Positions 2,410 to 18,500 of a stretch of DNA of 43,502 bases are shown in pieces. The stretch spans positions 1 through 43,502 of the forward strand of contig NZ_FZMP01000229.1 of assembly GCF_900196725.1 (NCBI RefSeq), in the 5' to 3' direction. The stretch's first letter is position 1. Every line of letters starts with the position of its first letter. The stretch is from Candidatus Methanoperedens nitratireducens. Its GTDB lineage: Archaea > Halobacteriota > Methanosarcinia > Methanosarcinales > Methanoperedenaceae. The position numbers and the translations under genes are program-made. The notes beneath the pieces were generated by a model that did no database searches, was not told the DNA's origin, and saw only the letters and a program-made list of their open reading frames with translations.

Positions 2410-2655
2410 GTGGTAAAAGTGCCATTCAAGACCATTAAAATAAGGGATGAGACCTATGAGAACTTGAACGCCCTTATAGGTGACCTGATGAAAGAGTTCA
2501 AAAGACCTGTATCCATGGATGAGGCATTGAGATATTTACTTAAGAGCAGGAAAAATATGCCAAGTAAGTTTGCCGGGGGCTGGAAGATGGACGAGGATGA
2601 ACTTGATAAGATGAGAAGCGAATTAAAGGAGGCGTGGAAAAGATGGGAATTGTAG
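2410..2655 (+). CDS. vapB: VapB-like antitoxin
   Basis: An 81-aa acidic/basic small protein with GTG start (a second GTG at 2419 is possible). The N-terminal segment TIKIRDETYENLNAL resembles the ribbon-helix-helix or AbrB-like strand of archaeal VapB antitoxins of the 'antitoxin VapB family' (often KTI-x-hydrophobic-RDETY). The C-terminus (KMDEDELDKMRSELKEAWKRW) is a charged helix expected to wrap the PIN toxin. It overlaps vapC by 13 nt (or 22 nt with the alternative vapC start), typical of TA operons. It points opposite to the cas operon and sits between cas3 and cas6. The antitoxin class is inferred from the sequence motif and its partner. Confidence 0.85.
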   Translation: MVKVPFKTIKIRDETYENLNALIGDLMKEFKRPVSMDEALRYLLKSRKNMPSKFAGGWKMDEDELDKMRSELKEAWKRWEL

Positions 2656-3035
2656 TAGATACCAATATCCTGATCGATCTTCTAAGGGATGAACGGTATG
2701 CTGTTAACAAAATGAAAGAGCTTGAGAAAAACGAGGATATCGCCACTACGGATATAAACGCCTTCGAGCTGTACTTCGGAGCTTACAATTCCAGGGATAA
2801 AGAGAGGAATATCGCATCGACAAGGGGTCTTTTGAAAAACCTGACCCTGCTGCATACAGGGGAAGGGAGTATGGAGACCGCAGGGAGGATATTTGCGCAA
2901 AGAAGGGCAGAAGGCAGGATGATTGAAATCAGGGATCTGCTCATCGCCTCAATCGCATTGCAGAGTGGATACAGGCTCCTGACGAACAACAGGGATCATT
3001 TTGAAGGGATAAAAGGGCTGGTCATTCAGGATTAA
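2643..3035 (+). CDS. vapC: VapC PIN-domain ribonuclease toxin
   Basis: A 130-aa PIN-domain protein. I start it at ATG 2643 because AGGAGG at 2627-2632 is ideally spaced for it; an in-frame GTG at 2634 lies too close. The four PIN motifs are visible: VVDTNILIDLL (first Asp), TDINAFELYFGA (Glu), IEIRDLLIASIAL (Asp) and LLTNNRDHF (Asn/Asp). Family members are Mg-dependent RNases that cleave tRNA or rRNA when free of VapB. The stop codon abuts the truncated second copy of the cas6 5' end, and the TAA may even lie within the outer edge of that duplicated sequence. The module probably stabilises the locus, which is inference. Confidence 0.93.
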   Translation: MGIVVDTNILIDLLRDERYAVNKMKELEKNEDIATTDINAFELYFGAYNSRDKERNIASTRGLLKNLTLLHTGEGSMETAGRIFAQRRAEGRMIEIRDLLIASIALQSGYRLLTNNRDHFEGIKGLVIQD

Positions 3036-3242
3036 ATTTTCGGCGCAGTCAATAGTGCCCGGCGCGCCGTCTGTTGTTTTGTACTGTGCCGGAGGATAGC
3101 GGTAGATGAGCTTATCGGCATTGTGCTGGTGGAGGGGGGAGTATTCATTGAATTTGGTGGCGAAGAAGCCGCGCAATTCAGGTGCGGAGCCGCGGATGGG
3201 GCGGGTGGAGGCGAGGATGAGGGTGAAGGTGCGGAGGAGCAT
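3032..3242 (-). pseudogene. Truncated duplicate of the cas6 5' end
   Basis: On the minus strand from ATG 3242 the first ~62 residues (MLLRTFTLILASTRPIRG, then APELRGFFATKFNEYSPLHQ) are nearly identical to Cas6 residues 1-62. At the DNA level the similarity is roughly 90% by eye, with a 9-nt deletion, and ends within or beside the vapC stop codon. After that the frame runs into vapC antisense sequence. The remnant begins 2 nt after the cas3 stop codon, the position expected for an operonic cas6. It is therefore probably the broken original or a hybrid junction, while the complete copy lies at 1579-2253. It lacks the glycine-rich RNA-binding loop and cannot be a functional nuclease. Confidence 0.9.
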
Positions 3243-3244
3243 AA

Positions 3245-4822
3245 TTAAAAAAGTAAGGTTCCCCCTGAACCCGGTATGAATCCAATTTCTGTATCATACC
3301 TATCTTTTAATTCTTCTATTGAAATATAGGCTATACCAGTTTCATTTTCAGGATTTGGTGCCTTATTTTTGGGGATTGAAATAACGTATTCATAGAAATC
3401 TTTTTTTATTTTTAAGAATTCGTTTTTTCTATCAAGTGGGTTTTTTAGTTCTCTTATTGCCTTATATTGATTCCATACAGCTTTAGCGAAATAGTCCAAC
3501 TCGATATACACATCGATTTTATAGTAGTCATCTTGAATAAGTTTGAAATTTTTACATAGTTGTTCAAATTCTAATTTTTTGACAAACGAAAGAATACTAT
3601 CGGATTCGTCATCACTTCCACTGTCTTTGATTTTTTTAAAGTAATTATTACTCAAAGTTAAAAAGTAATTTTCGCTTATCCTTTCTGGAGCCTCTTTGAG
3701 GACGTCCCTAGTTTTATCGATTAGAAAGGGTGAATAGATATACCTATAGAATTCCTTATTTTCATCTTTAAGGATAAATAATTTTACGAGTCCTTTCTTC
3801 CCATCTGTATAGTTTCGATTGCATCTTCCAGAAACTTGATTTATTGAATCCATTGGTGAAAAATCACGATAAACAATATCCACATCAATATCTACCCCAG
3901 CTTCAATTAATTGAGTACTGACAATTATTTTTCTATCTTTATTGTCTTTTATTTCGTTTATTCGTTCAAGCCGCTGATAAGGGGTAATATTAGTAGAAAG
4001 ATAATACAACTTTGTATCTGGAATTTTTAAAGATTTTAAATATTGGTACACATTTTTTGAAGAATTTATTGTATTCAGGACAATAAGAAAATTTTTACTA
4101 TTATTTGCTTCAACATCCTTTTTTACAATCTCTTCAAAATCATCAAGAATCATGGGTTCAATATTTGGTATTAGTTCGATTCTATCAAATCTGTCAAAAT
4201 AAGTTTTTTTGTTTTTTACAAGTTCAACGATTTCATTCTTACTTTCATCAAATATCAAAGGTTGAGTAGCGGTTACAAAAACAAAATAAGTATTGAAACA
4301 TTTTGAAAATAATGAAATAACCTCTTTGAATAAAAGCCAATATTCATGAGGGATCGATTGAACTTCATCAAGAATTACAATTGAATTTATAATGTTATGA
4401 CATTTTCGTAAGGACCTATTTTTATTTGAAATTAAAGTATGAAATAATTGTATGAATGTTGTTACAATGATCTCAGCGTTCCATCCTTCAATCAATAGTA
4501 GGCTTTCGGGGGTTTCGTAATCAGATTTTTCCTCCGTTTCATAAAAAATGTCAGATAAATGGTGATGCTTCAATAGAATATCAGTTGTTGGAGTTTTTCC
4601 CTGAACTTTTTCAAATACTTCTTCAAAAACCTTGAAATTCTGATCTATAATACTTAAAAATGGAAGTGAATATATAATTTTAGGTGTAAAGTTAATCTCC
4701 TTTCTAATTTTTTCCCTTAGTTTTAAAGAAAAAGATAAAACAGTAAGTGTTTTCCCAGTTCCAGTCGGAACATTCAAAGAATAGATATTATTATTCAAAT
4801 TCAAGGTTTTTAATTCTCCCAT
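3245..4822 (-). CDS. cas3: Cas3 helicase part (Cas3')
   Basis: A 525-aa superfamily 2 helicase. Motif I (NVPTGTGKTL) lies only 17 residues from the ATG; motif II is ILDEVQSIPHEYW (the DEVQ form common in Cas3), motif III FVTATQP, and motif VI QVSGRCNRN. Cas3 is the ATP-dependent motor of type I CRISPR interference, unwinding DNA that Cascade has marked. The same frame is open upstream to 4870 and encodes KIDIIRNEIYSDV, a normal Cas3 lead-in to motif I. It overlaps the stop of the HD gene, so the two ORFs look like one cas3 split by a 1-nt shift in an A-rich stretch (see the findings). The gene is very AT-rich. Confidence 0.93.
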   Translation of the reverse strand: MGELKTLNLNNNIYSLNVPTGTGKTLTVLSFSLKLREKIRKEINFTPKIIYSLPFLSIIDQNFKVFEEVFEKVQGKTPTTDILLKHHHLSDIFYETEEKSDYETPESLLLIEGWNAEIIVTTFIQLFHTLISNKNRSLRKCHNIINSIVILDEVQSIPHEYWLLFKEVISLFSKCFNTYFVFVTATQPLIFDESKNEIVELVKNKKTYFDRFDRIELIPNIEPMILDDFEEIVKKDVEANNSKNFLIVLNTINSSKNVYQYLKSLKIPDTKLYYLSTNITPYQRLERINEIKDNKDRKIIVSTQLIEAGVDIDVDIVYRDFSPMDSINQVSGRCNRNYTDGKKGLVKLFILKDENKEFYRYIYSPFLIDKTRDVLKEAPERISENYFLTLSNNYFKKIKDSGSDDESDSILSFVKKLEFEQLCKNFKLIQDDYYKIDVYIELDYFAKAVWNQYKAIRELKNPLDRKNEFLKIKKDFYEYVISIPKNKAPNPENETGIAYISIEELKDRYDTEIGFIPGSGGTLLF

Positions 4823-4854
4823 AACATCTGAATAAATTTCATTTCGAATAATAT

Positions 4855-5631
4855 CTATTTTATTTTTGGTTTATCGTAGCCTTTAATTGTCCGATAATTA
4901 TCAACCAAATCAAAAGGAATCACTTTATTGCTTTCGATTTCTTGAAGACCTGACGCATCTAATTTATCTGAATTTAAAAGAATAGAATAAAAAAGCTGAG
5001 TTAAGAGATAACATTGGATGGATTTTTCTTTTTCTAAATAATCAGAAAAACCCCTTCTGTTACTTTTAATTTCTCCAATTATTCTTTCATAACCACAAAT
5101 AAATTTAGTTATATCAATATTAGGCAGCAACTCTAAGTAGATTTCTTTGAGTTCTTCGAAATATAATAATTTAATTTGCCTTCCCAAAATTTCGATATTA
5201 TCCTTGTCTAAACTTAAAATTTCATCTTGCGCATCTTCCAAGTTTCCATGATGTTTTTTTACTACAAGATAACCTATCAAAGGTAAAAATTGGAATTTTA
5301 ACTCTTTAAATGACTCTTTTATCACAAAATAAGTAAATATTGAAGATAGCAGGCCATGCCTTGTTTCAGGATTATTCTTTAGGGAAGCTTTGCGTTTTTC
5401 ATCTTTTTCGTTTATATAACTTTGAAAATTACAGGTACCTTTTCCAAAATCATGTGAAACACCTGTAAAATAGGAAAAATTTGCAAATATTTCATCATTT
5501 AAACCAAAAAACTTTGAATTGATGTTCTTTGATTCAACAGTAGTTTTACAGAATAATCCTACATTTCTAAGATGGTCAATTAAGAATTTGTCAGGATGAG
5601 ATTTTAGATCAAAGGAAGATGATTGATTCAT
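4855..5631 (-). CDS. cas3: Cas3 HD nuclease part (Cas3'')
   Basis: About 258 aa from ATG 5631 (MNQSSSFDLKSHPDKFLIDH); an in-frame ATG at 5658 would lie deeper inside cas5. HD-domain signatures are DHLRNVG, GVSHDFGKGTCNFQSY (the HD pair), TRHGLLSS and KKHHGN, giving the metal-binding histidines and aspartate of the Cas3 nuclease that degrades target DNA. It overlaps cas5 by 23 nt. It ends at TAG 4857-4855, just where the helicase frame takes over. Either this is a naturally split Cas3''/Cas3' pair or a frameshifted single Cas3; the perfect continuity of homology across the junction favours the latter. Confidence 0.9.
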   Translation of the reverse strand: MNQSSSFDLKSHPDKFLIDHLRNVGLFCKTTVESKNINSKFFGLNDEIFANFSYFTGVSHDFGKGTCNFQSYINEKDEKRKASLKNNPETRHGLLSSIFTYFVIKESFKELKFQFLPLIGYLVVKKHHGNLEDAQDEILSLDKDNIEILGRQIKLLYFEELKEIYLELLPNIDITKFICGYERIIGEIKSNRRGFSDYLEKEKSIQCYLLTQLFYSILLNSDKLDASGLQEIESNKVIPFDLVDNYRTIKGYDKPKIK

Positions 5632-6331
5632 TATTATCCAATTCCCAATATCTATCAACTTTTGCCGTTATTCCTTTTCCATTAATTCCATTTCTTTCGA
5701 ACATAACTTTTCTATATTCTTTTAATGTTCTATCCAGTTCCATTTCAGTTGGAATTGTTTCAGAAAAATATTCCCCATCTTCCAATTTGATTTCTTTGAT
5801 CAAGTCAGTAGGAATAGCGGAATCCATTTTTACGAAATCGGAGGATGATTTTTCTTTTATTACCGTTTCTCCAATGAATTCAAAATTAGCTATATGTTCG
5901 GTAATCCCTAAGCATGGAGTATAGACGCATTTATGATATAAAAGCAGAGATTTTGCTTTATTAAATATATTTGGATCTGTATGATGGAAATATATTCTGT
6001 ATTTTGCATCTTTCACAAATTCGAACCTGATTTGTGTTCGAGGTCCATGTGAGCCTTTTTTAATCGGAATGAAATAGTCATCCTTAGTATTAATAAGATT
6101 TTCAGCAATTCTTACTTTTTTAATTGGATTCAAGATTTTAACGGCAATCTGCGCCTGTTGTTTTGAGAAATATTTTAAATATTCATCTTTTGGAAGGCCT
6201 AAGATAGCCCCTATAAGCCCACTAATTGCGGTTCTTGGTGGAATTGAAAAAGTAAGAGGCGATGTTGTAGTGTAGTATTTCCTAAAATGTGCATACTCAC
6301 CCCAAACATCGAATACCAATATTTTATCCAT
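5609..6331 (-). CDS. cas5: Cas5 (type I-B) Cascade subunit
   Basis: 240 aa, the size of Cas5h. The N-terminal RAMP strand ILVFDVWGEYAHFRKYYT and SPLTFSIPPRTAISGLIGAI (glycine-rich turn) are diagnostic of Cas5 of subtype I-B. The middle section, with KKGSHGPRTQIRFEFVKD, is also typical. Cas5 caps the 5' handle of the crRNA in the Cascade complex and contacts Cas8b and Cas7. It lies 5 nt after cas7 and overlaps the HD gene downstream. Strongly AT-rich codon choice matches cas3, cas7 and cas8b. Confidence 0.94.
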   Translation of the reverse strand: MDKILVFDVWGEYAHFRKYYTTTSPLTFSIPPRTAISGLIGAILGLPKDEYLKYFSKQQAQIAVKILNPIKKVRIAENLINTKDDYFIPIKKGSHGPRTQIRFEFVKDAKYRIYFHHTDPNIFNKAKSLLLYHKCVYTPCLGITEHIANFEFIGETVIKEKSSSDFVKMDSAIPTDLIKEIKLEDGEYFSETIPTEMELDRTLKEYRKVMFERNGINGKGITAKVDRYWELDNNESIIFL

Positions 6332-6336
6332 ACATC

Positions 6337-7380
6337 CTACAATGATAACGGTAGTGCTGGAATTCCGGTGCTTTTAAAAGCTTCATTAATCGCGACTTCT
6401 TTACCTTCTAATTCAAATCTAGCTCGTTCATCAATTTTGTATTCAACATTTTGAATTAAATCCTTTTTGTTTTTTAGGACGTCGATTATTTTTGTCAGAT
6501 TTATCTTTACTTGAGAGATGTCTCTCAATTCTTCATCAGGAACTTCTTTCACTAAAGAAATCATACTATTGAGGTCACCTATGTGATAATTAGTCTCTTT
6601 GTAATTTACTTTTATAAGCAATCTTGGAACTTGGCCAACTTTTGATCTTGAGATTAGATTTTTTGTACCGTTCCATATACTATCGAGTAGAAGCTTTACA
6701 TCATCATCTGTTAGTTTTGTCTCTTTTGCGGCATTTTCATTTATGATTCCATAGAAGTTTATTAATGAGTAGAATAGAAAATCTTCTTCACGGAACGTCT
6801 TTTGTTCAGCATTCTTACCAGAGGCAAATGCACCCGTTCCTTTGAAGTGTTTAATGAATACTTTATGCAGCGATCTACCTATCTTAAATTGAACAGGTCC
6901 CGTAAAAGTCAAAGAACTTGTCTGTTCTTTGCTTTCAGTTTGTTCTTTAATATCTTCTTTAGGCTTTTCAGTCTTTTTTCCCTTCTTAACTTTCAATTCC
7001 AACGGAATTGTTGCTCCGAAGAGTCTCACGTCTATACATTGTTTTAGAATTTCAAATGTAGCTATCTCTTTTTGTTGCTGAAGTGTTTTGCCCTCTCGTT
7101 CCGCTAATGGAATATGTTTTAAAAAATCTGATGCTCTTAGTTTTGCGTCCTGAATGTGGCCTTCTTCATCGGATATCTCTCGTACAAAAATATCTTGTTT
7201 CTTAAAGTTGTATAAATAGTCCCGGATAGTTCTCTTAAGCCTTACATCTGTTACAAGATTGACGCCTGTTTCTTCATCAATTCTTGGTTTATTTTCATCC
7301 AAAGGGTCTCCATTTGGATTTGCATCTTTCACATCGTACAAAAAAACAAGTTCCGACCTATTTGTGATTATATTGCTCAT
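6337..7380 (-). CDS. cas7: Cas7 (Csh2-type) Cascade backbone
   Basis: 347 aa. The N-terminus SELVFLYDVKDANPNGDPLD followed by KPRIDEETGVNLVTDVRLKR is the signature of Csh2, the Cas7 family of subtype I-B. Multiple copies polymerise along the crRNA. A lysine/glutamate-rich insert near residues 120-140 is probably a disordered loop. The ATG overlaps the cas8b stop by 4 nt (ATGA), implying translational coupling and co-transcription. AT-rich composition matches its neighbours. Confidence 0.96.
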   Translation of the reverse strand: MSNIITNRSELVFLYDVKDANPNGDPLDENKPRIDEETGVNLVTDVRLKRTIRDYLYNFKKQDIFVREISDEEGHIQDAKLRASDFLKHIPLAEREGKTLQQQKEIATFEILKQCIDVRLFGATIPLELKVKKGKKTEKPKEDIKEQTESKEQTSSLTFTGPVQFKIGRSLHKVFIKHFKGTGAFASGKNAEQKTFREEDFLFYSLINFYGIINENAAKETKLTDDDVKLLLDSIWNGTKNLISRSKVGQVPRLLIKVNYKETNYHIGDLNSMISLVKEVPDEELRDISQVKINLTKIIDVLKNKKDLIQNVEYKIDERARFELEGKEVAINEAFKSTGIPALPLSL

Positions 7381-9185
7381 GTTGTTTCCTCCGTTGTTGA
7401 TTTAAATAAATTTGAGAGATTCATACCCAGTACAAAATAAAAGCTGATCTCATCGTTAGACATTTTCCACCCTTCTCCTGACTGAACCATATATTTCCCA
7501 ATTAAAAATTCAAGACCTTTATAATAATTTTTCCCGTACTCTTCAAGCTTATTTTGAATTTCTGGCAACAACTTCTTTACATGTTTTTCATCTAATTTCA
7601 ATCCCTGAAGTTTTACTCTAAATGGCGTAGCTTTTCGATCATTGTACTGAATATTTAATAAGTATTGTGTTAATACACCTTCTAAGAATATTGCTTTTTT
7701 CGAGTCTTTATTAAAGAAATCAGGAAACTCTTTAAACAAAGTATTGGCTTTTTCTTCTAACGGTAAATTCGTTCCTTGCAGCAGGTTTGTGATGCTTTTT
7801 TCATTCATATTTTTACCTCCATTAAAATTGTCAAGAAGTTCTAATTCGTTTAAATAAATAAGAAGTTGAAAACCCTTCAAAGTAAGATATTTTGTAAATT
7901 TTTTTTCATCTTGAAATTCTATTCGGATTTTCCTCATTATTGCCAAAATTAAAAATGAATAATCTATTTTCTTATTCGTAAAAATTTTATTTGTTATTTC
8001 AAGGAAATTGCTTTTAGGAAAAAATGAAAAAATGTTTCCAAAGTTAAATTCCATCGATTTACCATCTTTCAAAACTTTAAAGATGGATTTTTTATCAACA
8101 TTCTCTTTAGCCTTGAAAAGTATTCTCAATCGAGAAGGTAATATATCTTCTATGTAGAGTAAAATCCTGAATGCTGATTTATCTATTCTATAAATTAATA
8201 AATTATTATTGAAAAAATTATCCTGTTCAGCAAGCTTATTTAAAATTTCCTTTTCATTGTCATCTAAAAGATGAATATATTTTGTTTCAAATTTTGGATC
8301 TTTTTCCTTGAATTCTTCTAAGATTTTGTATATTTCTTCAGCTTTATTTTGATTCAAAAGTTTCGGGATTATATAATAATTGAATCCGTAAAATTTAAAA
8401 TTTGAATTCTCATGAATATATTTTTTCCCTTCTTCTAATGTTAATGCACATTTTAAACATACTGGATAATTTTTCCATGCCAACGATTGATTGAATCCAC
8501 CACTAACGAATCCAGGCTTATCAACTGTATAGTCAAAAGTTCCAACAAAGCCAAATACTTCTTCGGATTTTTTTCTACAGACTGAACAAAACTTCTCAAT
8601 AGCTTTCGATTCCTTTCCATATTTTTGGTAATATCCATTGGAAGTGTCCTCAATTAAAACTTTTCTAAATACTGGAAAGTCGCCAATATATTTTTTATCG
8701 GGAGAATAAATAAGCAGTGTTGTTATTTTATTTTCTTTTTTATCTAAACTACCATATTTTAATTTTAGATCGGAAAGAATTATCGTATTATTTGATTTCA
8801 AGCAATCTTCAATCCCTTTTAGAAATATGATTTCCTCAGCATTGAAAGAATTATTATTTTTTTCAATAATTTTTGTAAACCATTTAATAATTTTGTTAGC
8901 AAAGGTCTTATCAATTTCTGTGACCCTACTGGTAGGTGTTAAATCAGTTCCATTGGGATCTCCTTGTTTATACAGATATTGTTTTATTTTACTTTTGCTA
9001 TATTCTTCCAATTCAATTCCTGCATATTCAAACCCTTTTTCAGTTTTATTAATTTTAATACCGAGAATATGTTTATATGTATTATTGGTCGCTGGATCCT
9101 CAATTACGATATCTGTTGGGTCTTCTAATCGTCTTCCAGCTTTTTCAAGTGAGTATTCTCCAATTTCTTTTACAGCCTCAATCAT
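7377..9185 (-). CDS. cas8b: Cas8b (Csh1) Cascade large subunit
   Basis: 602 aa, the size of Csh1/Cas8b. It carries a split zinc-binding motif, CSVC at residues 200-203 and CLKC at residues 243-246, typical of this large subunit. Cas8b recognises the PAM and recruits Cas3. The C-terminal part, rich in helices, would hold the small-subunit-like domain. It is the first gene of the minus-strand operon, with GGAGG about 9 nt upstream of ATG 9185 and a TATA box about 100 nt upstream. GC content is visibly low (whole lines under 25% G+C), while the DNA immediately upstream of the start is GC-rich. This marks one edge of the AT-rich block. Confidence 0.95.
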   Translation of the reverse strand: MIEAVKEIGEYSLEKAGRRLEDPTDIVIEDPATNNTYKHILGIKINKTEKGFEYAGIELEEYSKSKIKQYLYKQGDPNGTDLTPTSRVTEIDKTFANKIIKWFTKIIEKNNNSFNAEEIIFLKGIEDCLKSNNTIILSDLKLKYGSLDKKENKITTLLIYSPDKKYIGDFPVFRKVLIEDTSNGYYQKYGKESKAIEKFCSVCRKKSEEVFGFVGTFDYTVDKPGFVSGGFNQSLAWKNYPVCLKCALTLEEGKKYIHENSNFKFYGFNYYIIPKLLNQNKAEEIYKILEEFKEKDPKFETKYIHLLDDNEKEILNKLAEQDNFFNNNLLIYRIDKSAFRILLYIEDILPSRLRILFKAKENVDKKSIFKVLKDGKSMEFNFGNIFSFFPKSNFLEITNKIFTNKKIDYSFLILAIMRKIRIEFQDEKKFTKYLTLKGFQLLIYLNELELLDNFNGGKNMNEKSITNLLQGTNLPLEEKANTLFKEFPDFFNKDSKKAIFLEGVLTQYLLNIQYNDRKATPFRVKLQGLKLDEKHVKKLLPEIQNKLEEYGKNYYKGLEFLIGKYMVQSGEGWKMSNDEISFYFVLGMNLSNLFKSTTEETT

Positions 9186-9207
9186 TCACGTCACCCTCCG
9201 CCCTCAT

Positions 9208-9486
9208 CTCTCTCCCGCCTTCCATTTCCATCGCCTCAACATCATCATTACAATCCACCATCCTCCCTGAAAACTACTCCTTTATTTATATATTTTACGA
9301 GAGCGGTACGAAAGTATTCCATCGAGATCATCCGCCAACTTGACTTGTTGCGATAGAACACGGCTGACACCGATGATTACTGATTTCGTATCCGTGAAAA
9401 TCCGTTTGATCCGTGTCATCCGTGTTCGTTTTAATTTGTCTAAAACGACTGGCAGAATACTATATATCCTGTCAATCCTGTAAATC
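9208..9486. repeat. Left copy of the duplicated cas upstream region
   Basis: Direct repeat of 10095-10323. It is composed of part A (about 9208-9327) and part B (9380-9486), separated here by 52 nt (9328-9379) that are missing from the right copy. The parts match the right copy at about 90-95% by eye. Part A contains the cas8b promoter. Part B contains short iterated phrases of the type ATCCGTG and ATCCTGT, common in dispersed intergenic repeats. The two copies bracket the relBE-like module. Confidence 0.93.
9283..9292 (-). promoter_or_regulatory. Predicted cas operon promoter (TATA box)
   Basis: Read on the minus strand, AAATATATAAATAAAGG lies about 100 nt upstream of cas8b, with an upstream CGTAAA that could serve as BRE. 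The predicted start is near 9260, leaving a ~75-nt leader that ends in a GGAGG ribosome site. The same box occurs in the duplicated copy at 10171-10180. Confidence 0.6.
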
Positions 9487-9540
9487 CAGTCTAAAAAGTT
9501 CAGAAATAAGGTACACGAAGGGTCAAAAATCGTGCCTGCG

Positions 9541-9786
9541 TCACCTGTAAACTTTCTTCCTGTGCTCAAACTTGTGAAGGATTATTAAATCGCTCTTGAA
9601 CTCGTATATAACCCTGAAAGGCGGGACTTTAATGCTTCTAAGCGTGAAAAGGTCGTATCTTAAAGGCTTTCCAACTTCAGGGTCATCGATAATCTTTTGA
9701 ACTATTTTCTTAACTCTCGCCTGGATTTTCTTATCCCCTATCTTCTTTAAATCCCCCTTGAATTCATCGGTGTATATAACTTTCAT
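9541..9786 (-). CDS. RelE/ParE-family toxin
   Basis: An 81-aa basic protein, KVIYTDEFKGDLKKIGDKKI to FEHRKKVYR. It has the fold pattern of RelE/ParE toxins: an N-terminal strand, two helices, then strands LRSIKVPPFRVIYEF (with the conserved Arg and Tyr) and IILHKFEHRKK. RelE members cut mRNA in the ribosome A site, while ParE members poison gyrase; the sequence does not separate the two. It overlaps the antitoxin gene by 4 nt. It sits upstream of the cas operon in the same orientation, so readthrough from here could also enter cas8b. Confidence 0.9.
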   Translation of the reverse strand: MKVIYTDEFKGDLKKIGDKKIQARVKKIVQKIIDDPEVGKPLRYDLFTLRSIKVPPFRVIYEFKSDLIILHKFEHRKKVYR

Positions 9787-10001
9787 ACCCAGACTTCATC
9801 GAGGTCGTCCACGCTTTTTAACTCATGCACTCTGCCTGCTTTTACATCATCCTTTGACTTTTTTATTCCTGCCATAAGCGTTTCATCGTTCATTATTTCA
9901 ATAGTTTCGATTATTGACTCAAGTTCTTCCTTTAATTTTTTAAGATTATTCAGTGCGTCATAGCTTATGACTATCTTGTTTTTGGAAAGGGTTTCTGGCA
10001 T
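9783..10001 (-). CDS. Antitoxin of the RelE/ParE-like pair
   Basis: About 72 aa, acidic, starting MPETLSKNKIVISYDALN. I chose ATG 10001 over the GTG at 10010 because a TATA box at 10033-10026 predicts initiation just upstream of 10001. A helical centre (NNLKKLKEELESIIETIE) and an extended acidic C-terminus (VHELKSVDDLDEVWV) are as expected for an antitoxin that wraps its toxin. The DNA-binding family is not clear to me. The end overlaps the toxin start (ATGA-type overlap), the usual TA arrangement. Confidence 0.85.
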   Translation of the reverse strand: MPETLSKNKIVISYDALNNLKKLKEELESIIETIEIMNDETLMAGIKKSKDDVKAGRVHELKSVDDLDEVWV

Positions 10002-10025
10002 AACTATCACATGTATGCATATTAT

Positions 10026-10033
10026 TATTTATA
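10026..10033 (-). promoter_or_regulatory. TATA box of the relBE-like pair
   Basis: Minus-strand TATAAATA lies 25-32 nt upstream of the antitoxin ATG at 10001, which fits a leaderless archaeal promoter. The pair therefore has its own promoter in addition to the duplicated cas promoter further upstream. Confidence 0.5.
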
Positions 10034-10094
10034 GACTACTGGTATCATCCACAAAAATTTACCCTCAAGATTTTTAATAATACATTCCCTGCCG

Positions 10095-10323
10095 CCTCTC
10101 GCCCGCCTTCCATTTCCATCGCCTCAACATCATCATTACAATCCACCATCCCCCCTGAAAACTACTCCTTTATTTATATATTTTACGAGAGCGGCGCGAA
10201 AGTATTCCATCGAGACTGATTTCGTATCCGTGAAAATCCGTTTGATCCGTGTCATCCGTATTCGTTTTAATTTGTCTAAAACGACTGGCAAAATACTATA
10301 TCCTGTCAATCCTGTTAATCCTG
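10095..10323. repeat. Right copy of the duplicated cas upstream region
   Basis: Direct repeat of 9208-9486 without the 52-nt internal segment: part A at 10095-10215 joins part B at 10216-10323 directly. Similarity stops abruptly after CTGTCAATCCTGTTAATCC. It lies upstream of the antitoxin gene on the minus strand, and therefore places a copy of the cas promoter in front of the TA module. Confidence 0.93.
10171..10180 (-). promoter_or_regulatory. Duplicate cas-type promoter upstream of the TA pair
   Basis: Same minus-strand TATATAAATA box and flanks as at 9283-9292, including the CGTAAA element and the downstream GGAGTAGTTTTCAGG. It would start a transcript near 10150 that reads into the antitoxin and toxin genes and possibly onward into the cas operon. 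Confidence 0.5.
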
Positions 10324-10834
10324 TCCACTATCTGTTTTTCACCCTCGATGATTGTATACGATCTGAGACGCCGGAATTGGCGGATAGCCTCGCATAGAGT
10401 ATATGCTGAAAAAGCGCCGCGATATAAACAGTGGACTGGTACGAACCCCCGTCGAGTTCGTTGTGAGTTCGTATTAAGTTCGTTGTTTCACATTTTGCGC
10501 CATCGCCTCCGACATCCTTAAATCTACGATTAGTGTTTTAAATTCAAATTCAGTTTTCAATACTGTGCTATTTTACAGATATGATTTTAAGTTGTCGCAT
10601 ATGTGAATGTACTCTAAATTGTGGAGCAACCGATTTTTTACACACACTCAGCAATGGTGCTACCGGTTTTTTGCGATCAACTTGCTCGTATCTGTTAGGG
10701 AAAAGAGCGAACTGACCAGCATGTCCATTCGTCCGAAAACTTGGAATGCCAACTTTTTTATTAACCAGCAACATATAGTTGTGCATAGTTTGAGTGAGGA
10801 TATGATTTTAGCAGATAATTATACGGCTGGCAAT
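10324..10834. other. Gene-poor stretch upstream of the DUF2551 gene
   Basis: No convincing gene. Visible items are three AGTTCGT iterations around 10456-10486 and a loose direct repeat, GAGCAACCGATTTTTT (10623-10638) versus GTGCTACCGGTTTTTT (10659-10674). The open frame that joins onto the DUF2551 gene has no conserved-looking sequence before about residue 65. No array, tRNA or insertion sequence was recognised. Confidence 0.5.
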
Positions 10835-11128
10835 ATGGATGATAAAATCAAGGACAGGCTGATGAAATTTTTGATAAAGGACAAAAAAGGTATCAGGAAG
10901 TGCCTGTTAAGACTCTTTTTGCAAACTAGGAGCTATACTACAAGCGAGGTCTATGAGTACCTTATAAAGCAGGGTTTTGATGTGAGCTACAGGGGAATAT
11001 ATGCCCTTGTCGGACAGATGCACAGCAGACTCGGAATCCTGCACATATACCCGGCTCGTGAGCACCGTATCTATTCCCTTAAGGAAAACTGCGGAAATAT
11101 TGTAGAGATGGTTTTATCAACCGGATAA
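10835..11128 (+). CDS. DUF2551-family protein
   Basis: About 97 aa from ATG 10835 (MDDKIKDRLMKFLIKDKKG); an in-frame ATG at 10802 is also possible. The sequence RKCLLRLFLQTRSYTTSEVY followed by GFDVSYRGIYALVGQMHSRL and IYSLKENCGNIVEMVL matches my recollection of DUF2551, a small family from Methanosarcinales. The pattern suggests a winged-helix fold, hence possible DNA binding, but the function is unknown. The frame is open further upstream to 10607; that extension does not look conserved. A short hairpin followed by a T-run downstream (11141-11175) may be its terminator. Confidence 0.8.
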   Translation: MDDKIKDRLMKFLIKDKKGIRKCLLRLFLQTRSYTTSEVYEYLIKQGFDVSYRGIYALVGQMHSRLGILHIYPAREHRIYSLKENCGNIVEMVLSTG

Positions 11129-11456
11129 ATAGATAAAATAAGATTTTACGTATTGTAAAACCGTAAATTATTTTTTCTTAGCTGAATTGTGCTTCCTGAC
11201 ATTCCGGTTAATAGCAATCTCTTTATAGATAATATTTATATCTATTTTATACTTTTTTTCTTCTATTTGTTGCTGAAGGTCTATGCAGTCCATAAATGTC
11301 AATAGCCATTTATCAAAAGTCATCTATATAAACAGGGTTGTGAGGTATGTGTGATATGTATGATCATTGAAATCGGCTTTGTAGAAATATCATCTAATCC
11401 ATAGAAAAACAATTATATAACAGGGATTACAATATAAGTACACAAGAGGGTGCACT
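11129..11456. other. Intergenic region with a putative terminator and promoter
   Basis: The stretch starts with a small hairpin (TTTACG/CGTAAA, about 11145-11168) followed by a T-rich run, a possible terminator for the DUF2551 gene. Near the end, AATTATATAAC (about 11410) lies some 25-30 nt from a likely start, and AGAGGGTG precedes the next ATG. No gene was seen. Confidence 0.45.
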
Positions 11457-11825
11457 ATGTCAATTCTCGATGTGACCGAAGACCAGATATTTCAGACGTT
11501 GGGCAAAGGAAGAGATCCGAATTTTAAACAGATAGAAAAAGTGAGACCCGTAGTGGCCAAACCAAAGAAAACTTACACGCTCAACAATATGAAATCAGTG
11601 CAGGCATCAAAAACCGTAACAGCACAGCCGCAAACGCAGTCTGTGGTCGAACCTGCAAAACCTGCTCTCTCGCCCGAAGTTGATGAATCCATGAAGAAGC
11701 TCAGCGTGGAATTAAGCGAGCTGAACACAAGGGTAAGCGGGATCCAGAGAATGGTCAGGTGGTATATAATACCGCAGTTCATGGTGGTCCTTGTTCTGCT
11801 GCTTACACTGATCGCGAAAAGCTGA
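11457..11825 (+). CDS. Unknown small membrane-anchored protein
   Basis: 122 aa. A polar, probably disordered N-terminal two thirds (MSILDVTEDQIFQTLGKGRD, then K/P/Q-rich sequence) leads to a predicted coiled coil (MKKLSVELSELNTRVSGIQR, about residues 79-98) and a single C-terminal membrane helix (IIPQFMVVLVLLLTLIA). This is the layout of a tail-anchored cytoplasmic protein. AGAGGG lies 7 nt upstream of the ATG. It ends 21 nt before apgM, so the two are probably co-transcribed. I do not recognise a functional family. Confidence 0.8.
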   Translation: MSILDVTEDQIFQTLGKGRDPNFKQIEKVRPVVAKPKKTYTLNNMKSVQASKTVTAQPQTQSVVEPAKPALSPEVDESMKKLSVELSELNTRVSGIQRMVRWYIIPQFMVVLVLLLTLIAKS

Positions 11826-11846
11826 TATTCCTTTTTAGAGGGTGAC

Positions 11847-13022
11847 ATGAAATTTATCGTTCTCGTTGGAGACGGAATGGCTGATTATCCCATTCCCGAA
11901 CTTGGGGACTTAACGCCTCTTCAGGCAGCGAATACCCCGAATATGGATTTTATCGCAAAGCACGGCAGGAACGGTGTTGCGAAGACCGTGCCTGAAAGCA
12001 TGACCCCGGGGAGCGATGTGGCCAACCTCTCCATCATGGGCTACGACCCTGTGCAGTATTATGCCGGGCGCGGTCCTCTTGAGGCTGCAAGCATGGATGT
12101 AGCTCTCGGGAAGGATGACATCGCTTTCCGGTGCAACCTCATAACCGAAAAAGACGGACTGCTTGCCGATTACAGTGCAGGGCACATCTCAAGTGAGGAA
12201 GCCCGGATTCTTATCGGGGCTGTGGACAGCGAGCTTGGGAACGATTGCAAATTCCATGCCGGTGTGAGTTACAGGCATCTGCTCGTAATGGGGCAGGGAG
12301 AAAGAGCCGTATGTACGCCCCCGCACGATGTGGTAGGGCAATCTATTGCCGATGTGCTGCCGCGCGGGGAAGATTCTGAGATTTTAATAGACCTTATCAG
12401 GGCATCAAAATCCATTCTTGAGACCCATGAGCTTAATGCGAAGCGGAAGAAGGACGGGAAGAACATCGCTAATCTTATCTGGCCGTGGGGTCAGGGAAAA
12501 GCGCCCCTGATGCCGTCCCTCATGGAATTATACGGCATCTCCGGCTCGATCATCTCAGCCGTTGATTTACTGAAAGGTATCGGCAAGTATGCAGGTCTTT
12601 CGGTCATAGATGTCCCCGGAGCTACAGGATACCTGGATACCAATTTCTCAGGCAAGGCGGCATATGCCCTTGAATCACTGCAGGAGCGGGATTTTGTCTT
12701 TGTCCATGTGGAGGCGCCGGATGAGGCGGGGCATATGGGCAATACAGAAGCCAAGGTAAGGGCTATTGAGGATTTTGATGAGAAAGTGGTGGGCGGGATG
12801 CTGAATGAGCTTGGCGGTTTTGGCGAGTACCGTATCATGGTTTTACCCGACCATCCTACGCCCGTTTCCATCAAAACGCACACAAGAGAGCCGGTCCCTT
12901 TTGCGCTCTATTCCTCGACAAGGAAAGCGGATTACGTGAACAGGTTCGATGAGTTTTCAGCCAGGAATGGGGTTTTCGGGCTTGTGGAAGGACACACGCT
13001 GATGAAACTGTTGACGAAGTGA
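11847..13022 (+). CDS. apgM: 2,3-bisphosphoglycerate-independent phosphoglycerate mutase (archaeal type)
   Basis: 391 aa. It interconverts 3- and 2-phosphoglycerate in glycolysis/gluconeogenesis. Alkaline-phosphatase-superfamily metal sites are visible: [11 protein letters not shown] (first Asp), [17 protein letters not shown] with the phospho-acceptor Ser (about residue 56), [13 protein letters not shown] and [15 protein letters not shown] near the C-terminus. [12 protein letters not shown] and IAFRCNL are typical of the archaeal ApgM branch. GAGGGTGAC lies just upstream of the ATG. The length is normal and no damage is seen. Confidence 0.96.
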
Positions 13023-13039
13023 TAACAGGTATATAAGAG

Positions 13040-13098
13040 TTTGATGGGCGGTGGGGAGTGGGGGTTAGTATTAAAAAAGTTTATAACCGCCCATCAAA
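13040..13098 (-). repeat. Imperfect-palindrome interspersed repeat, copy 1
   Basis: TTTGATGGGCGGT (13040-13052) and ACCGCCCATCAAA (13086-13098) form a perfect 13-bp inverted repeat around a 33-nt centre. The complement of this unit matches 38548-38609 closely, including the centre (AAACTTTTTTAATAC and TAACCCCCACTCCCC). It is read on the minus strand relative to copy 2. It lies between apgM and the ACT gene and could act as a terminator-like hairpin or be a small mobile repeat. Confidence 0.85.
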
Positions 13099-13132
13099 TA
13101 TATCATATGTTCCTCTTACATATATAGTTTAC

Positions 13133-13190
13133 ACATGCTTTTAGTACATGCTCAAAGCATATGTCAATGCTATATGCTAAAAGCACATGT
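13133..13190 (+). promoter_or_regulatory. Nested inverted repeats upstream of the ACT-UPF0210 operon
   Basis: AGCATAT (13156-13162) pairs perfectly with ATATGCT (13172-13178). CTTTTAG (13138-13144) pairs with CTAAAAG (13177-13183). The arms overlap at 13177-13178, so the two helices are mutually exclusive unless trimmed. It lies about 75 nt before the ACT gene ATG. This could be a structured leader or an operator; no known riboswitch consensus was recognised. Confidence 0.35.
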
Positions 13191-13262
13191 TTTGCCGTGA
13201 TTTTGCCATGATAAAATTTAACTCTCAGTTCCGATATTAATTGAACCCGGAAGAGGCAAAGA

Positions 13263-13541
13263 ATGACCAAATACCTTGTATTCATAACAGTGATAGGAAA
13301 AGACCGAAAAGGGATAATCGCCAGGATCTCAAACGCTGTTTTCAGGCATAACATCAACATCGAGGACCTGAACCAGAAAGTAATGGAGGGTTATTTTGTA
13401 ATGACCATGCTTGTGGACATGTCCGACTCGCCGATAACGATAGCAGAGTTGAAAAAAGAACTTTCGGTCATCGAAACTGAGATGGGTCTTAAGATACAGG
13501 TCCAGCACGAGAACATTTTCCAGACCATGCACCGGGTGTAA
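13263..13541 (+). CDS. ACT-domain regulatory protein (UPF0237 type)
   Basis: 92 aa, a single ACT domain: YLVFITVIGKDRKGIIARIS, then FRHNINIEDLNQKVMEGYF and MTMLVDMSDS. ACT domains bind small ligands, often amino acids. This stand-alone type is the usual partner of UPF0210 proteins. GGAAGAGG precedes the ATG, and the UPF0210 gene follows after 3 nt, so the two form an operon. It is presumably a ligand-sensing or assembly partner of the downstream protein; the ligand is unknown. Confidence 0.94.
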   Translation: MTKYLVFITVIGKDRKGIIARISNAVFRHNINIEDLNQKVMEGYFVMTMLVDMSDSPITIAELKKELSVIETEMGLKIQVQHENIFQTMHRV

Positions 13542-13544
13542 ATC

Positions 13545-14900
13545 ATGGAATACTCGCTTGAAGAGGTCATGGAAACCGTAAACATGACGCTCTATCATAA
13601 TTTCGATATAAGGACTGTGACTCTCGGGCTTAACCTGAAAGACTGCATCAATTCGGATATCGAGGTCTTCAGCTCAAATGTGTATGATCGTGTTACGGAA
13701 TACGGGGAAAAACTTGTCGCGCAGGCAGGGATGCTTGAGGAAAAATACGGTGTTCCGATAATCAATAAAAGGATATCGGTGACACCGGTTTCCCTTATAA
13801 TAGAATCCAGCGTTGCGGATGCATCTGTCAGGATCGCACAGGCTCTTGATAATGCCGCCCGCGATGCAAATATCGATTTCATCGGCGGGTACGGCGCCCT
13901 TGTCCAGAAAGGGATGACGCGTGCCGATACGCGCCTCATCGATTCGCTTCCCGATGTCCTGTCCGGCACAGAAAGGGTGTGCGCTTTTCTTAACGTTGCC
14001 TCAACAGCATCGGGTATGAACATGGACGCAATAATAAGGCTCGGGTGTATTCTCAAGGAAATCTCGGACAGGACCGAGAACGGGGCAGGATGCGCGAAAT
14101 TCGTGGTGTTCTCAAACGCTCCTGAGGATAACCCGTTCATGGCAGGGGCTTTCCACGGAGTCGGTGAGCCTGATTTTTCGCTGAATATAGGCATCAGCGG
14201 CCCTGGTGTGGTAAGGAACGTGGTCGAGAAGAACAGGGACTGCGACCTGACCGCGCTTTCCGAGACAATCAAACGCACGTCTTTTAAGATAACAAGAGCC
14301 GGCGAATTAATAGGAAGGGAGCTTGCGATGAATATGGGTGTTCCTTTCGGGATAGTGGACATCTCGCTTGCATCGACCACCAGAGTAGGAGATTCCGTCG
14401 CCGGGATAGTGGAAATGATGGGCATAGAGAAAATGGGCGCACCGGGAAGTACAGCCGCGCTTGCACTTCTTATCGATGCAGTAAAGAAAGGCGGTGCCAT
14501 GGCGTCGGGGAACGTGGGCGGCCTGAGCGGGACATTCATCCCGGTGAGTGAGGATTCAGGCATGAACGCCGCTGTAAAGTGCGGTGCGCTCTCGATAGAG
14601 AAGCTTGAGGCTCTTACTGCGGTATGTTCGGTCGGGCTTGATATGATAGCCATCCCCGGCGACACGCCTGCCGAGACCATATCAGCCATAATTGCAGATG
14701 AGCTTTCCATAGGCGTCGTGAACGCAAAGACAACCGGCGTGAGGCTCATCCCGGTTCCGGGTAAGAAAGCAGGGGATTATGTAAACTTCGGCGGGCTGCT
14801 CGGTGAAACTTACGTAATGGAGACAAACAAGTTCAGCTCGCGCGATTTCATATTGCGGGGCGGAAGGATGCCAAGCCCGGTCACGAGCATGAGGAATTAG
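13545..14900 (+). CDS. UPF0210 (DUF711/PFL-like) family protein
   Basis: 451 aa, the family's normal length. Signature stretches include DIRTVTLGLNLKDCI, KRISVTPVSLI, FIGGYGALVQKGMT, NPFMAGAFHGVGEPD, VGLDMIAIPGDTP and GGRMPSPVTSMRN at the C-terminus. Crystal structures show a pyruvate-formate-lyase-like barrel, but no reaction is established for the family. It follows the ACT gene by 3 nt, and the ACT/UPF0210 pairing is conserved in many bacteria and archaea. It ends in TAG, followed by a perfect hairpin at 14918-14937. Confidence 0.95.
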   Translation: MEYSLEEVMETVNMTLYHNFDIRTVTLGLNLKDCINSDIEVFSSNVYDRVTEYGEKLVAQAGMLEEKYGVPIINKRISVTPVSLIIESSVADASVRIAQALDNAARDANIDFIGGYGALVQKGMTRADTRLIDSLPDVLSGTERVCAFLNVASTASGMNMDAIIRLGCILKEISDRTENGAGCAKFVVFSNAPEDNPFMAGAFHGVGEPDFSLNIGISGPGVVRNVVEKNRDCDLTALSETIKRTSFKITRAGELIGRELAMNMGVPFGIVDISLASTTRVGDSVAGIVEMMGIEKMGAPGSTAALALLIDAVKKGGAMASGNVGGLSGTFIPVSEDSGMNAAVKCGALSIEKLEALTAVCSVGLDMIAIPGDTPAETISAIIADELSIGVVNAKTTGVRLIPVPGKKAGDYVNFGGLLGETYVMETNKFSSRDFILRGGRMPSPVTSMRN

Positions 14901-14917
14901 CATTAATATGGCACAAT

Positions 14918-14937
14918 CCTGATTTTCACAAATCAGG
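14918..14937 (+). terminator. Hairpin after the UPF0210 gene
   Basis: CCTGATTT and AAATCAGG form a perfect 8-bp stem with a TCAC loop, 18 nt after the UPF0210 stop. There is no strong T-run behind it, so it may be an mRNA 3'-end stabiliser or a weak terminator. Confidence 0.45.
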
Positions 14938-14993
14938 CGTGTGAAATTGATGTGAATCATATTTAATAGCGTGTCAATCTAATAAAATATTTT

Positions 14994-15458
14994 ATGGACA
15001 TTACAACGCCCCTTCTACCAAAACTATTAAATCTTAAAGAAAAATCAAGTGCCAGGGCTGTAGTGCTGCTTGACCCGACATATCTTAAAGGAGAAGCTTC
15101 ACATATAGCAGGAATTAAGACACCTGAAGTAAAACTTTCTTTTGAGGAACTGACAGAATATCTCACAGGATATGCTGCTTTTACAAAGAACTTTCTAAAA
15201 AATATACACATTGAAGACCCGCTGGCACCGAGAACAGTATATATCTCAACTGAAGACCGGAGGGTATATCTTTTCCATTTCTATGTCAAAACCAAACAAA
15301 AGACAGACCCATTTTCTATTTTCCTTGGACTCACTGTCAGAAAAAACATGGATGCAATTAAAGAAGGTAAAGAAAATCCATGGGAAATTCCACAGTACGT
15401 TTTTGATAATGCATGGGATACTATCAGAGAGATACAAGAGATATACAGTCGATTTTGA
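14994..15458 (+). CDS. Unknown 154-aa protein upstream of the giant cytochrome
   Basis: A soluble-looking, slightly basic protein (MDITTPLLPKLLNLKEKSSA to IQEIYSRF) with no signal peptide or membrane helix. Visible pieces are a strand-like ARAVVLLDPTYLKG and VYISTEDRRVYLFHFYVKTK. I do not recognise a family. A TATA-like CATATTTAATAG (about 14959-14970) suggests leaderless transcription from the ATG. The cytochrome gene starts 65 nt downstream on the same strand, so the two may be co-expressed. Confidence 0.72.
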   Translation: MDITTPLLPKLLNLKEKSSARAVVLLDPTYLKGEASHIAGIKTPEVKLSFEELTEYLTGYAAFTKNFLKNIHIEDPLAPRTVYISTEDRRVYLFHFYVKTKQKTDPFSIFLGLTVRKNMDAIKEGKENPWEIPQYVFDNAWDTIREIQEIYSRF

Positions 15459-15523: not shown

Positions 15524-18500
15524 ATGAGCACTTTATGGAACAATGCTAATATGCCATCTTTAGCGCTTATATTTGTCATACTATCAGGAGTAGTATCAGT
15601 CTTATTATTTTTTTTACCGGTAACCACGCAAACGACAGAGAGTTATACAAATGCACAGACATGGAATGAGTTGCCTGCCAGAATCAATGCAGTAAACAAC
15701 ATCCTGAGCACAACAGTCAACATCAGGTCATATGACAAAAGCAAAACACTGAAAAAAGTGGCAGTTCATCTCAAAGTAAACAAAGTAAGCAAGGGTGAAA
15801 TCGTACTGGATGACTACGGGAAGAACAGCCCTGTTTCAGTTCAGCTTCCTGCAAGGGCTGTGAAGTTCATGGAGATCGGTGCAAAGGATATTTCTTACTC
15901 TTCTGCAAATATAACCGTACGCTATACCGATGCTGAACTAGGTAGCGTTGATGAAAATTCCCTTTTGATATACCACTGGAGCGGTGAAGCATGGGAGCCT
16001 TTACCAACGACAGTGGATGTTTATAACAATACCCTGACAGCCACGACGACTTCTCTTTCGCCTTTCGGTGTGGCTGGAACTGTCACATATCGCTATCTTC
16101 CAAGCAATGGTATAGCGATTGCAAGTGGTATCGCCACTAATTGGGATTGCTCCGGAATAACCGGTTATGCAAGGTCAGAACTTACAAACGCGAGCAGTTC
16201 AGGTTGCGCGGACCGTAATGAAAGATCAAACGGTCTTCTTGATCCTGCAGTGGACATGTTCCTGAACACACCATATACCGTGGATACACAGGTCCAGGGT
16301 AACTGGTATTTCGGGCATTTCAGAGACAGGACATCCTCAGGCATTGTTACATTCAGGTTAATATACATCTATTCTAACGGAACAATAAATGCTCTTCCGG
16401 GTACGGGGAGCCAGGTGCTAAATGGTGCGGATAATAATTTCAACGTCTCGTTAACAGGCATCAGCGGAACTGTTCCCGCCGGTACCAAACTGGGTTTGAG
16501 AATGTCGTCATCCGCGGATATAGATATTATTGTGGGCGATACCGCTGGTGTGGGGAATGTAGCATCAGGCTATTTCTCGATAACAGACAATCCTGTTAGT
16601 GGTCAGCCCCCGCCAAATATAATCACGTGGGGCAATAATAAAACCAATAACCAAACTACATCTATCACCATAAACACCAGCGAAGCTGTTAGATTCAATG
16701 CAACAGCCAACCAGACGATAACTACATGGAACTGGTACAGGGACGATGTGAACCAGAACAACAACTTTGATAATTTCACAACTTCATGGAGCGCAGCAGG
16801 CAGCTACCATATTGACGTTAATGCTACGAACGCAAATGGAACAAGCAGCTCCATCAGATGGGACGTAACGGTAACGGCTCTGCCCGGGGAATCATCTGGA
16901 GGTACTCCGGACCTGAAATTGGCAGTCAACCGGCGCGTAATACTGGATGATCCCACATTTGCAGGAAGTTCAAAAGGCACGGGTTTTAGCATGCCTCCTG
17001 ACCCGGCGACCCAGGACCGGTATCCTGGCAATGATTGGGGAATAAGTGCGAACTACTGGAAAGATGAGGCAACGACTCTGCGTGTATATGCACTTGTCCT
17101 TAACCAGAGCGGATTTCCTCAGAGCGGGGCAGGTATAATATTCTCGGCTGTGAACGCCACAGGATATAAAAATATTACGTCCCCTACGGTAACAACATCT
17201 TCCTCCGGAGTGGCATCATACTTTTTTAACCTCGACACTCAGAGCTCATATGGTAACTGGACTATATGGGCAAATACGACCATTGAGGGTACCGACGTAA
17301 ACCGCTCCACAATGATAATATACAACTGGTGGGGCTGTGCATTGTGCCATGGAGAACCAAGCAATAAACTGGAAACCAGTGTTACTAAAGTACGTGGAAA
17401 TTCACCTTATTACAATAACCATACAACAACAGCCTTAGCGCGTTATCGTGAACCTCACTTAGGGGTCAGTAAATCTGAACACACAAATCATCAATCACAT
17501 GACCGAAACCCAGCCGGATACAGTGCTTTTCCAGATACAAAATGTACACACTGTCACCAATCCTATGATGGTTTACCGGGTGGGAATACCATTGCTACTT
17601 ACAGGATTTATACAGTGGACTATCATGGCGGCGGTACGAACAACCGATCATGTATAGACTGCCATGGGAACGTAGCTTCGTTAACTAACGGTATCCCGAA
17701 CATGCCCTCTTGTAACGATTCAGGCTGTCATGTTAACGAAAGCTTACAGAGAAACAAGAATCTGACGCAGGTGAGCACGACCAATACATCGCTCCTGGAC
17801 GGTAGAAATAACCCGAGAACGATGTTTTCCGACAATATCCCGACTTCTTCATCGCCTCTTAAAGCACATAAATTTGACCGGAACGTGCCGTGCATTATAT
17901 GCCATAACGCCATGCACAATCTTACAAAGCCTGACCCATCTGTACCGCAAAGCAGCAATATAACGGAATACACCCAGTGCACCTACTGCCACACTACCTA
18001 TAGCCGCCACAACGACAGCGTGAGCTGCACAGTATGTCATTCGCAGGATGTGCATCTAATAAAAGTGCTCGCCCAGAATGCCACTTATATCTATGACAGT
18101 ACTTCTTCTTCCAGGGGAAACTGTACTAACTGCCACCAGAACTCCTCTTTCTTCAGCACATTACTATCACAGCCAAAAGCAGGCAATCATTCAGGAAGTC
18201 CGCCTCAAATCCCGGGCACTTTAAAACATTCATCCAACCTCTCAAATGGCAGCATCTGGAACAGTACAACTACTCCTTACTGGACTTCAAGCAGCGGCTC
18301 ATGCTATTACTGCCATAACGATACAAAACATAATTCAACAGCCCTTGGCAAGATCAGCAGTCTCCTTGGAGATGCGAACAATACAAGGAACGGTTCTCTC
18401 AAGACCACCACCTGGTGTGCAGACTGCCATTATAACGAATCAGTCAATACCAACTATATGGGCACCCGGTGGTCTCCCAGTCCTCCGGTGATCACTTTCA

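Follow-up and report, generated by a model that had tools for sequence, protein, structure and literature searches.

Why should a toxin-antitoxin (TA) pair lie between two copies of the leader of a cas operon? The question is raised by the window analysed here, a 43,502-nucleotide (nt) stretch of contig NZ_FZMP01000229.1 of a metagenome-assembled genome (MAG) of Candidatus Methanoperedens nitratireducens, in which a pair of the RelE/ParE type stands upstream of cas8b in a type I-B cas locus. Our reading, to which we give a probability of about 0.55 on the strength of sequence comparisons, is that the pair is an addiction module bordering an exchangeable type I cas cassette on its upstream side, and that the joint between pair and cassette has been duplicated. 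The comparison set comprised 34 genomes of the family, with G000 as the genome of the window, and 17 cas loci in the first table; the locus of G021 joined later, after a search with the leader motif described below had led there.

A toxin-antitoxin pair between two copies of a cas leader

The first-pass annotation had placed a RelE/ParE-like pair between direct repeats of the cas8b-upstream region that differ by a 52-nt indel. Self-BLAST bore this out: the two repeats, R1 and R2, pair with an E-value of 8e-74, and their gap-free blocks reach 97% identity over 120 nt and 98% over 87 nt. Both have the same orientation, R1 upstream of cas8b (open reading frame (ORF) 7377-9185, minus strand) and R2 upstream of the pair. 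R1 begins 23 nt from the cas8b start codon; beyond R2 follow about 280 unannotated nt and then, at 10607, a DUF2551 gene. The features of this region are:

9208-9491, minus: R1, the cas8b-proximal repeat copy, with leader half (A) and distal half (self-BLAST)
about 9284-9294, minus: TATA box of the inner cas leader (motif and TATA search)
9302-9319, minus: A-motif GAATACTTTCGTACCGCT of the inner cas leader (motif search)
9327-9378, no strand: 52-nt block shared by R1 and G027:C120, missing from R2 (alignment)
9352-9437, no strand: dispersed intergenic element within the distal half (genome searches)
9541-9786, minus: RelE/ParE-type toxin, 81 amino acids (aa) (profile searches)
9783-10001, minus: RelB-like antitoxin, 72 aa from ATG (position and conservation alongside the toxin)
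10026-10034, minus: putative TATA box for a promoter of the pair itself (recognised by eye; relatives have the similar TAGTCTATA/TAGCCTATA)
10096-10325, minus: R2, the outer repeat copy, upstream of the pair (self-BLAST)
10190-10207, minus: A-motif GAATACTTTCGCGCCGCT of the outer cas leader, directed into the pair (motif search)

The toxin matches Pfam ParE_toxin (PF05016) at 1.3e-11, above the cut-off, which places it in the RelE/ParE fold family. The match to RelE_StbE (TIGR02385) scored 25.9 bits, slightly below the cut-off of 27.9, and profile matches to the RelE3 and YoeB structures were weak; the structure model of the toxin, built from 7 sequences, was too poor for use (mean predicted local distance difference test score 45.8). 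For the antitoxin, Pfam gave no family and NCBIfam only an implausible weak match to PpaX (16 bits, cut-off 218). Its ORF, counted here from ATG while the mechanical ORF begins at GTG 10010, overlaps the toxin start by 4 nt and is conserved with it in 7 loci; no family model names it, and we call it RelB-like because of this position and joint conservation. The ParE_toxin match, the weaker RelE3 and YoeB matches and the small overlapping operon resemble the RelE/ParE superfamily, and the pair is best described as a probable type II TA pair of that superfamily, with neither RelE nor ParE activity assigned. A search of 10326-10745 for a second toxin or antitoxin remnant gave no blastn match to the pair, and among viral contigs searched for toxin relatives none of 212 pattern matches was confirmed.

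The repeat itself is a composite of a cas operon leader half and a dispersed intergenic half. It has matches at 13 places in the window's own genome and in 33 of the 34 family genomes, mostly via the distal half; repeat positions of about 141-230 recur in most genomes and constitute the dispersed element. Positions 1-116, in contrast, recur beside cas genes (C151 of the same genome, upstream of the Cas6b gene; G027:C52; G015:C131; G008), and the aligned leader half contains the A-motif and the TATA box. The notion that the repeats are a dispersed element unrelated to cas can thus be accepted for the distal half and is ruled out for the proximal half. With up to 3 mismatches, the motif followed by a TATA box precedes the first cas gene in 16 of 17 loci, which are the loci from which the motif was derived; the exception, G004, is without the leader motif. 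At one mismatch or fewer, 31 of 34 genomes contain the motif, most of them at several places. Nine matches were seen in eight non-cas stretches, one of them with a TATA box in range, and G007:C57 has one too. Motif and TATA box together were met once in 594,448 bases of other loci, a count that left out loci brought in by the motif itself, and this one place, G021:C58, is itself a cas locus. The motif is therefore largely, not wholly, cas-specific: a cas leader element, and perhaps more than that.

Some further observations concern the leader. In G007:C57 (L218, 694-3896), motif and TATA box precede an AbiE-like pair that belongs to no cas locus seen. On the minus strand at 9208-9290 and 10096-10180 the leader contains a short ORF (MMMLRRWKWKAGER-like, translated by eye), which the sibling leaders in C151 and G027:C52 also keep open, with an indel the size of a codon. 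The intergenic stretch 10546-10682 is 82-83% identical to DNA upstream of the G027:C52 leader.

How the pair came to the leader can be approached through a close relative, G027, where a unit 89% identical to window 9312-10079 stands at a different address (contig C120), without the leader. The unit measures 758 nt (L108, 6405-7162), and its flanks match contig C141 of the window's own genome, which carries at the matching site 807 nt of other DNA including a 159-aa ORF. Because of this unit, the distal half and the 52-nt block can be assigned to the pair, which leaves the leader half for the cas operon. Past the point at which the window copies become the pair's tail, the two sibling leaders, in C151 and G027:C52, go on to share about 50 nt that are missing from both window copies. 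Both copies carry the same new joint and would therefore go back to one joint that was duplicated later. We infer that the pair joined the leader first, that the joint was duplicated afterwards and that R2 then lost 52 nt; the earlier proposal that the insertion itself created the repeats does not agree with the relatives, which suggest TA insertion beside the leader before any duplication. In the operon tree the window groups with G027 (support 1.0) and G003 with G024 (0.997), which puts the cas linkage of the pair on two branches. A lone CRISPR repeat is conserved at the edge of the unit's address in G027 (L108, 7161-7197) and at the matching site in the window's own genome, which holds the different insert (L212, 3632-3660).

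Recurrence in relatives and exchange of the cassette

The possibility that such TA pairs are unlinked to cas in all relatives can be dismissed. Members of the RelB(E) family stand directly upstream of the cas operon in 6 of 18 cas loci of the genus, the pairs being intact in G000, G003, G024 and G021 and reduced to remnants in G012 and G001. On the far side of the pair, G000, G024 and G012 have the leader a second time, and G021 has a 47-nt piece of it. The leader is thus duplicated in 4 of 6 RelB-bearing loci versus 0 of 12 others (p 0.005, the loci not being phylogenetically independent), or in 3 of 5 versus 0 of 12 without G021 (p 0.015 for the first 17 loci, kinship ignored). For this count 3,000 bases of upstream DNA were compared per locus (2,000 only in G022), and G029, with a leader match of only 17 nt, was not scored as duplicated. 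The G021 locus was put together from two contigs: the pair stands at the end of C38, whose final 127 bases are identical to the start of C58, where leader, cas genes, MNT-HepT and cas6 follow the overlap in this order. The two G012 leaders enclose the RelB remnant and, on the opposite strand, a HicAB pair; in G030, where the cassette is 93% identical to the G012 one, a single leader stands without a pair. An ORF in G024 (L115, 7737-8006) fuses HicB-like and RelB-like parts. Pairs of the same RelBE family also occur at non-cas sites in G027, G007 and G009. Upstream of the G009 pair (L113, 3399-3640) stand about 85 nt of cas leader, on a 6,894-base contig without a cas gene.

The pair borders a block of interference genes, and with Cas8b, Cas7, Cas5, Cas3 and Cas6b the locus has the type I-B gene set. 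Profile searches and comparisons delimit two parts:

3245-9185, minus: exchangeable type I-B interference cassette cas3'-cas3''-cas5-cas7-cas8b
203-2253, minus: conserved arm cas2-cas1-cas6

The cas3-cas8b block had been described as AT-rich, and its GC content is indeed 29.7%, compared with 45.2% for cas2-cas6 and 45.9% for 10607-15458. The loci of C10 and C151, both of the window's own genome, and of G027:C52 share the cas2-cas1-cas6 arm (91-94% identity) and the leader and have different interiors. G003 and G024 are 94% identical beyond the pair, 93% in pair and leader and 86-91% on the cas6 side, with patches of 67-74% between, and G029 and G019 repeat the pattern of like flanks around different interiors. 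The window cassette is 84-90% identical to that of G003 and the cas2-cas1 arm 78%, so that the cassette has moved between lineages. These comparisons show arms that stay conserved while the cas3-cas8b cassette between them is exchanged. The second cas locus of the same genome, C151 (L039), has the same arm (93%) with a different cassette, and its cas1 is split into two ORFs.

Explanations for the layout

In our reading, the history of the layout would have begun when the pair joined the cas8b operon leader together with its own downstream tail. Duplication of the joint would then have given the order leader-pair-leader-cas8b, any outer copy of the pair being lost. The pair would most likely serve as an addiction module. 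A toxin of the RelE/ParE type with a labile antitoxin would punish loss of its locus: losing the cassette edge, also by collapse between the repeats, would remove the source of antitoxin and expose the toxin. Selection against collapse might in this way keep pair and duplication together with the cassette. In the window and in G024 a full leader copy reads toward the intact pair, so that the pair may also be under the same control as cas8b.

Several observations weigh against this reading. The pair of G003 stands upstream of a single leader, RelBE of G012 has decayed, and the four closest relatives of the window cas locus are without any RelBE. The leader copies of G024 are not each other's closest relatives and did not arise by simple duplication. 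Both the 47 nt of leader upstream of the G021 pair and the stretch upstream of the G009 pair are without motif and TATA box; because these two loci retain only part of the outer leader, the case for regulatory coupling is weakened and promoter capture is not general. Furthermore, the genome is a MAG of 250 contigs with a contamination of 5.18%. That contamination, like the presence of two related cas loci (C10 and C151) with contig ends at homologous positions, would suit an assembly artefact or a mixture of strains, but the repeat copies differ by the 52-nt indel and by substitutions, and three further genomes have a layout of this kind; we regard this explanation as very improbable.

Alternatively, the layout may be a scar of recombination without function, the outer leader being the promoter of a former cassette and the pair having arrived with a new cassette and its own leader. 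Cassettes have been swapped at the pair's edge, that of the window between lineages, and of the two G024 leaders the inner one has its closest match in G003, the outer one in G030. In the window the outer copy is nearer to the siblings (88 versus 83% for C151, 84 versus 78% for G027:C52), although the aligned lengths differ. The window leaders, however, are 97% identical, a far closer match than either has with any other leader compared, and both have the same novel joint, while the leader of a foreign cassette should differ; gene conversion could mask such a difference. We consider a scar possible but rather unlikely. The pair could also be a mere passenger in a recombination hotspot, with TA modules gathering at the edges of this variable locus and leader repeats that are incidental. 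This would agree with TA families that differ by locus and with members of the same family at non-cas sites, but leader duplication is confined to RelB-bearing loci, and HepT-family matches are concentrated at cas arms (16 of 157: 15 within 3 kb of an arm's cas1 and one beside cas6 in G021). A passenger is accordingly, in our view, quite unlikely.

The addiction reading has a precedent in CreTA of haloarchaeal type I-B CRISPR-Cas, described as an RNA pair that Cascade represses via CreA, which resembles CRISPR RNA (crRNA) and has degenerate repeats (PMC8501985, PMC12737573). As far as those descriptions go, our pair occupies the slot of CreTA in haloarchaea (hubeiense included), directly upstream of a type I cas operon, and addiction to cas is the proposed outcome in both; in contrast to CreTA, toxin and antitoxin are proteins here. 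No CRISPR-like repeat that could belong to a crRNA-like antitoxin scored above shuffled sequences in 9186-10760 (best score 23, maximum of 100 shuffles 24), and none was found in the window at up to 6 edits, although strongly degenerate repeats could escape. With no degenerate CRISPR repeat found near the pair, CreTA proper was rejected. By analogy, the pair might still be a protein counterpart of CreTA, in which a second cas leader wires a RelBE-type pair to the cas operon and links the supply of antitoxin to cas expression, so that loss or silencing of the cassette is punished; we offer this tentatively and think it unlikely. If it held, collapse of the repeats would remove the pair and kill the cell, and leader duplications would survive only around a TA pair.

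For Sulfolobales it has been suggested that vapBC type II protein pairs scattered through cas cassettes aid in maintaining them (PMC4390879). Protein pairs among the cas genes, probably of type II here as well, are common to both cases, but RelBE here holds a fixed slot between duplicated operon leaders, beside swapped cassettes, in one genus; duplicated leaders do not figure in the description of Sulfolobales vapBC compared here. A narrow literature query for promoter duplication with relBE and cas8b returned nothing, which does not imply absence from print. The genus offers a natural series of loci with no pair, a pair with one leader, a pair between two leaders and a decayed pair; with swapping cassettes, this makes it testable whether TA pairs hold CRISPR-Cas modules in place. 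The layout also marks fixed edges for the exchange of interference modules.

The cas6 edge of the cassette

A vapBC pair between cas6 duplicates had been noted at the other end of the interference genes, and VapB and VapC were indeed found between copies of the cas6 5' region (2034-2241 and 3032-3230; 87% over 208 nt):

2410-3035, plus: VapBC at the cas6 end of the cassette (profile search)
3032-3242, minus: cas6 5' fragment, duplicate of the 2034-2241 region (self-BLAST)

In 15 of the 19 arms in which cas1 and cas6 were seen, the stretch from the last interference gene to cas1 contains TA genes, the four others being C151, G027:C52, G029 and G019; contigs end inside this region in G020, G030:C72 and G031. 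The families vary by locus (VapBC, HepT-MNT, AbiE, HicAB, RelBE). TA genes between cas6 and a cas6 fragment are found in the window, in G015 (HepT-MNT), in G022 (AbiE) and, with a weak fragment, in G021.

From the two sandwiched modules the first-pass annotation had argued for a shared way of arriving rather than chance. The leaders of G024, G012 and G021 and the cas6 ends of G015 and G022 support the part of this claim that denies chance. A single way and time of arrival could not be upheld: G001, G008 and G019 have cas6 fragments with no TA genes between fragment and cas6, and the promoter copies are 97-98% and the cas6 copies 87-92% identical, which implies different ages for the two duplications.

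Farther along the window, 15524-22195 encodes a 2223-aa multihaem cytochrome-like protein with an S-layer domain; a 300-nt stretch is repeated within it at 76% identity.
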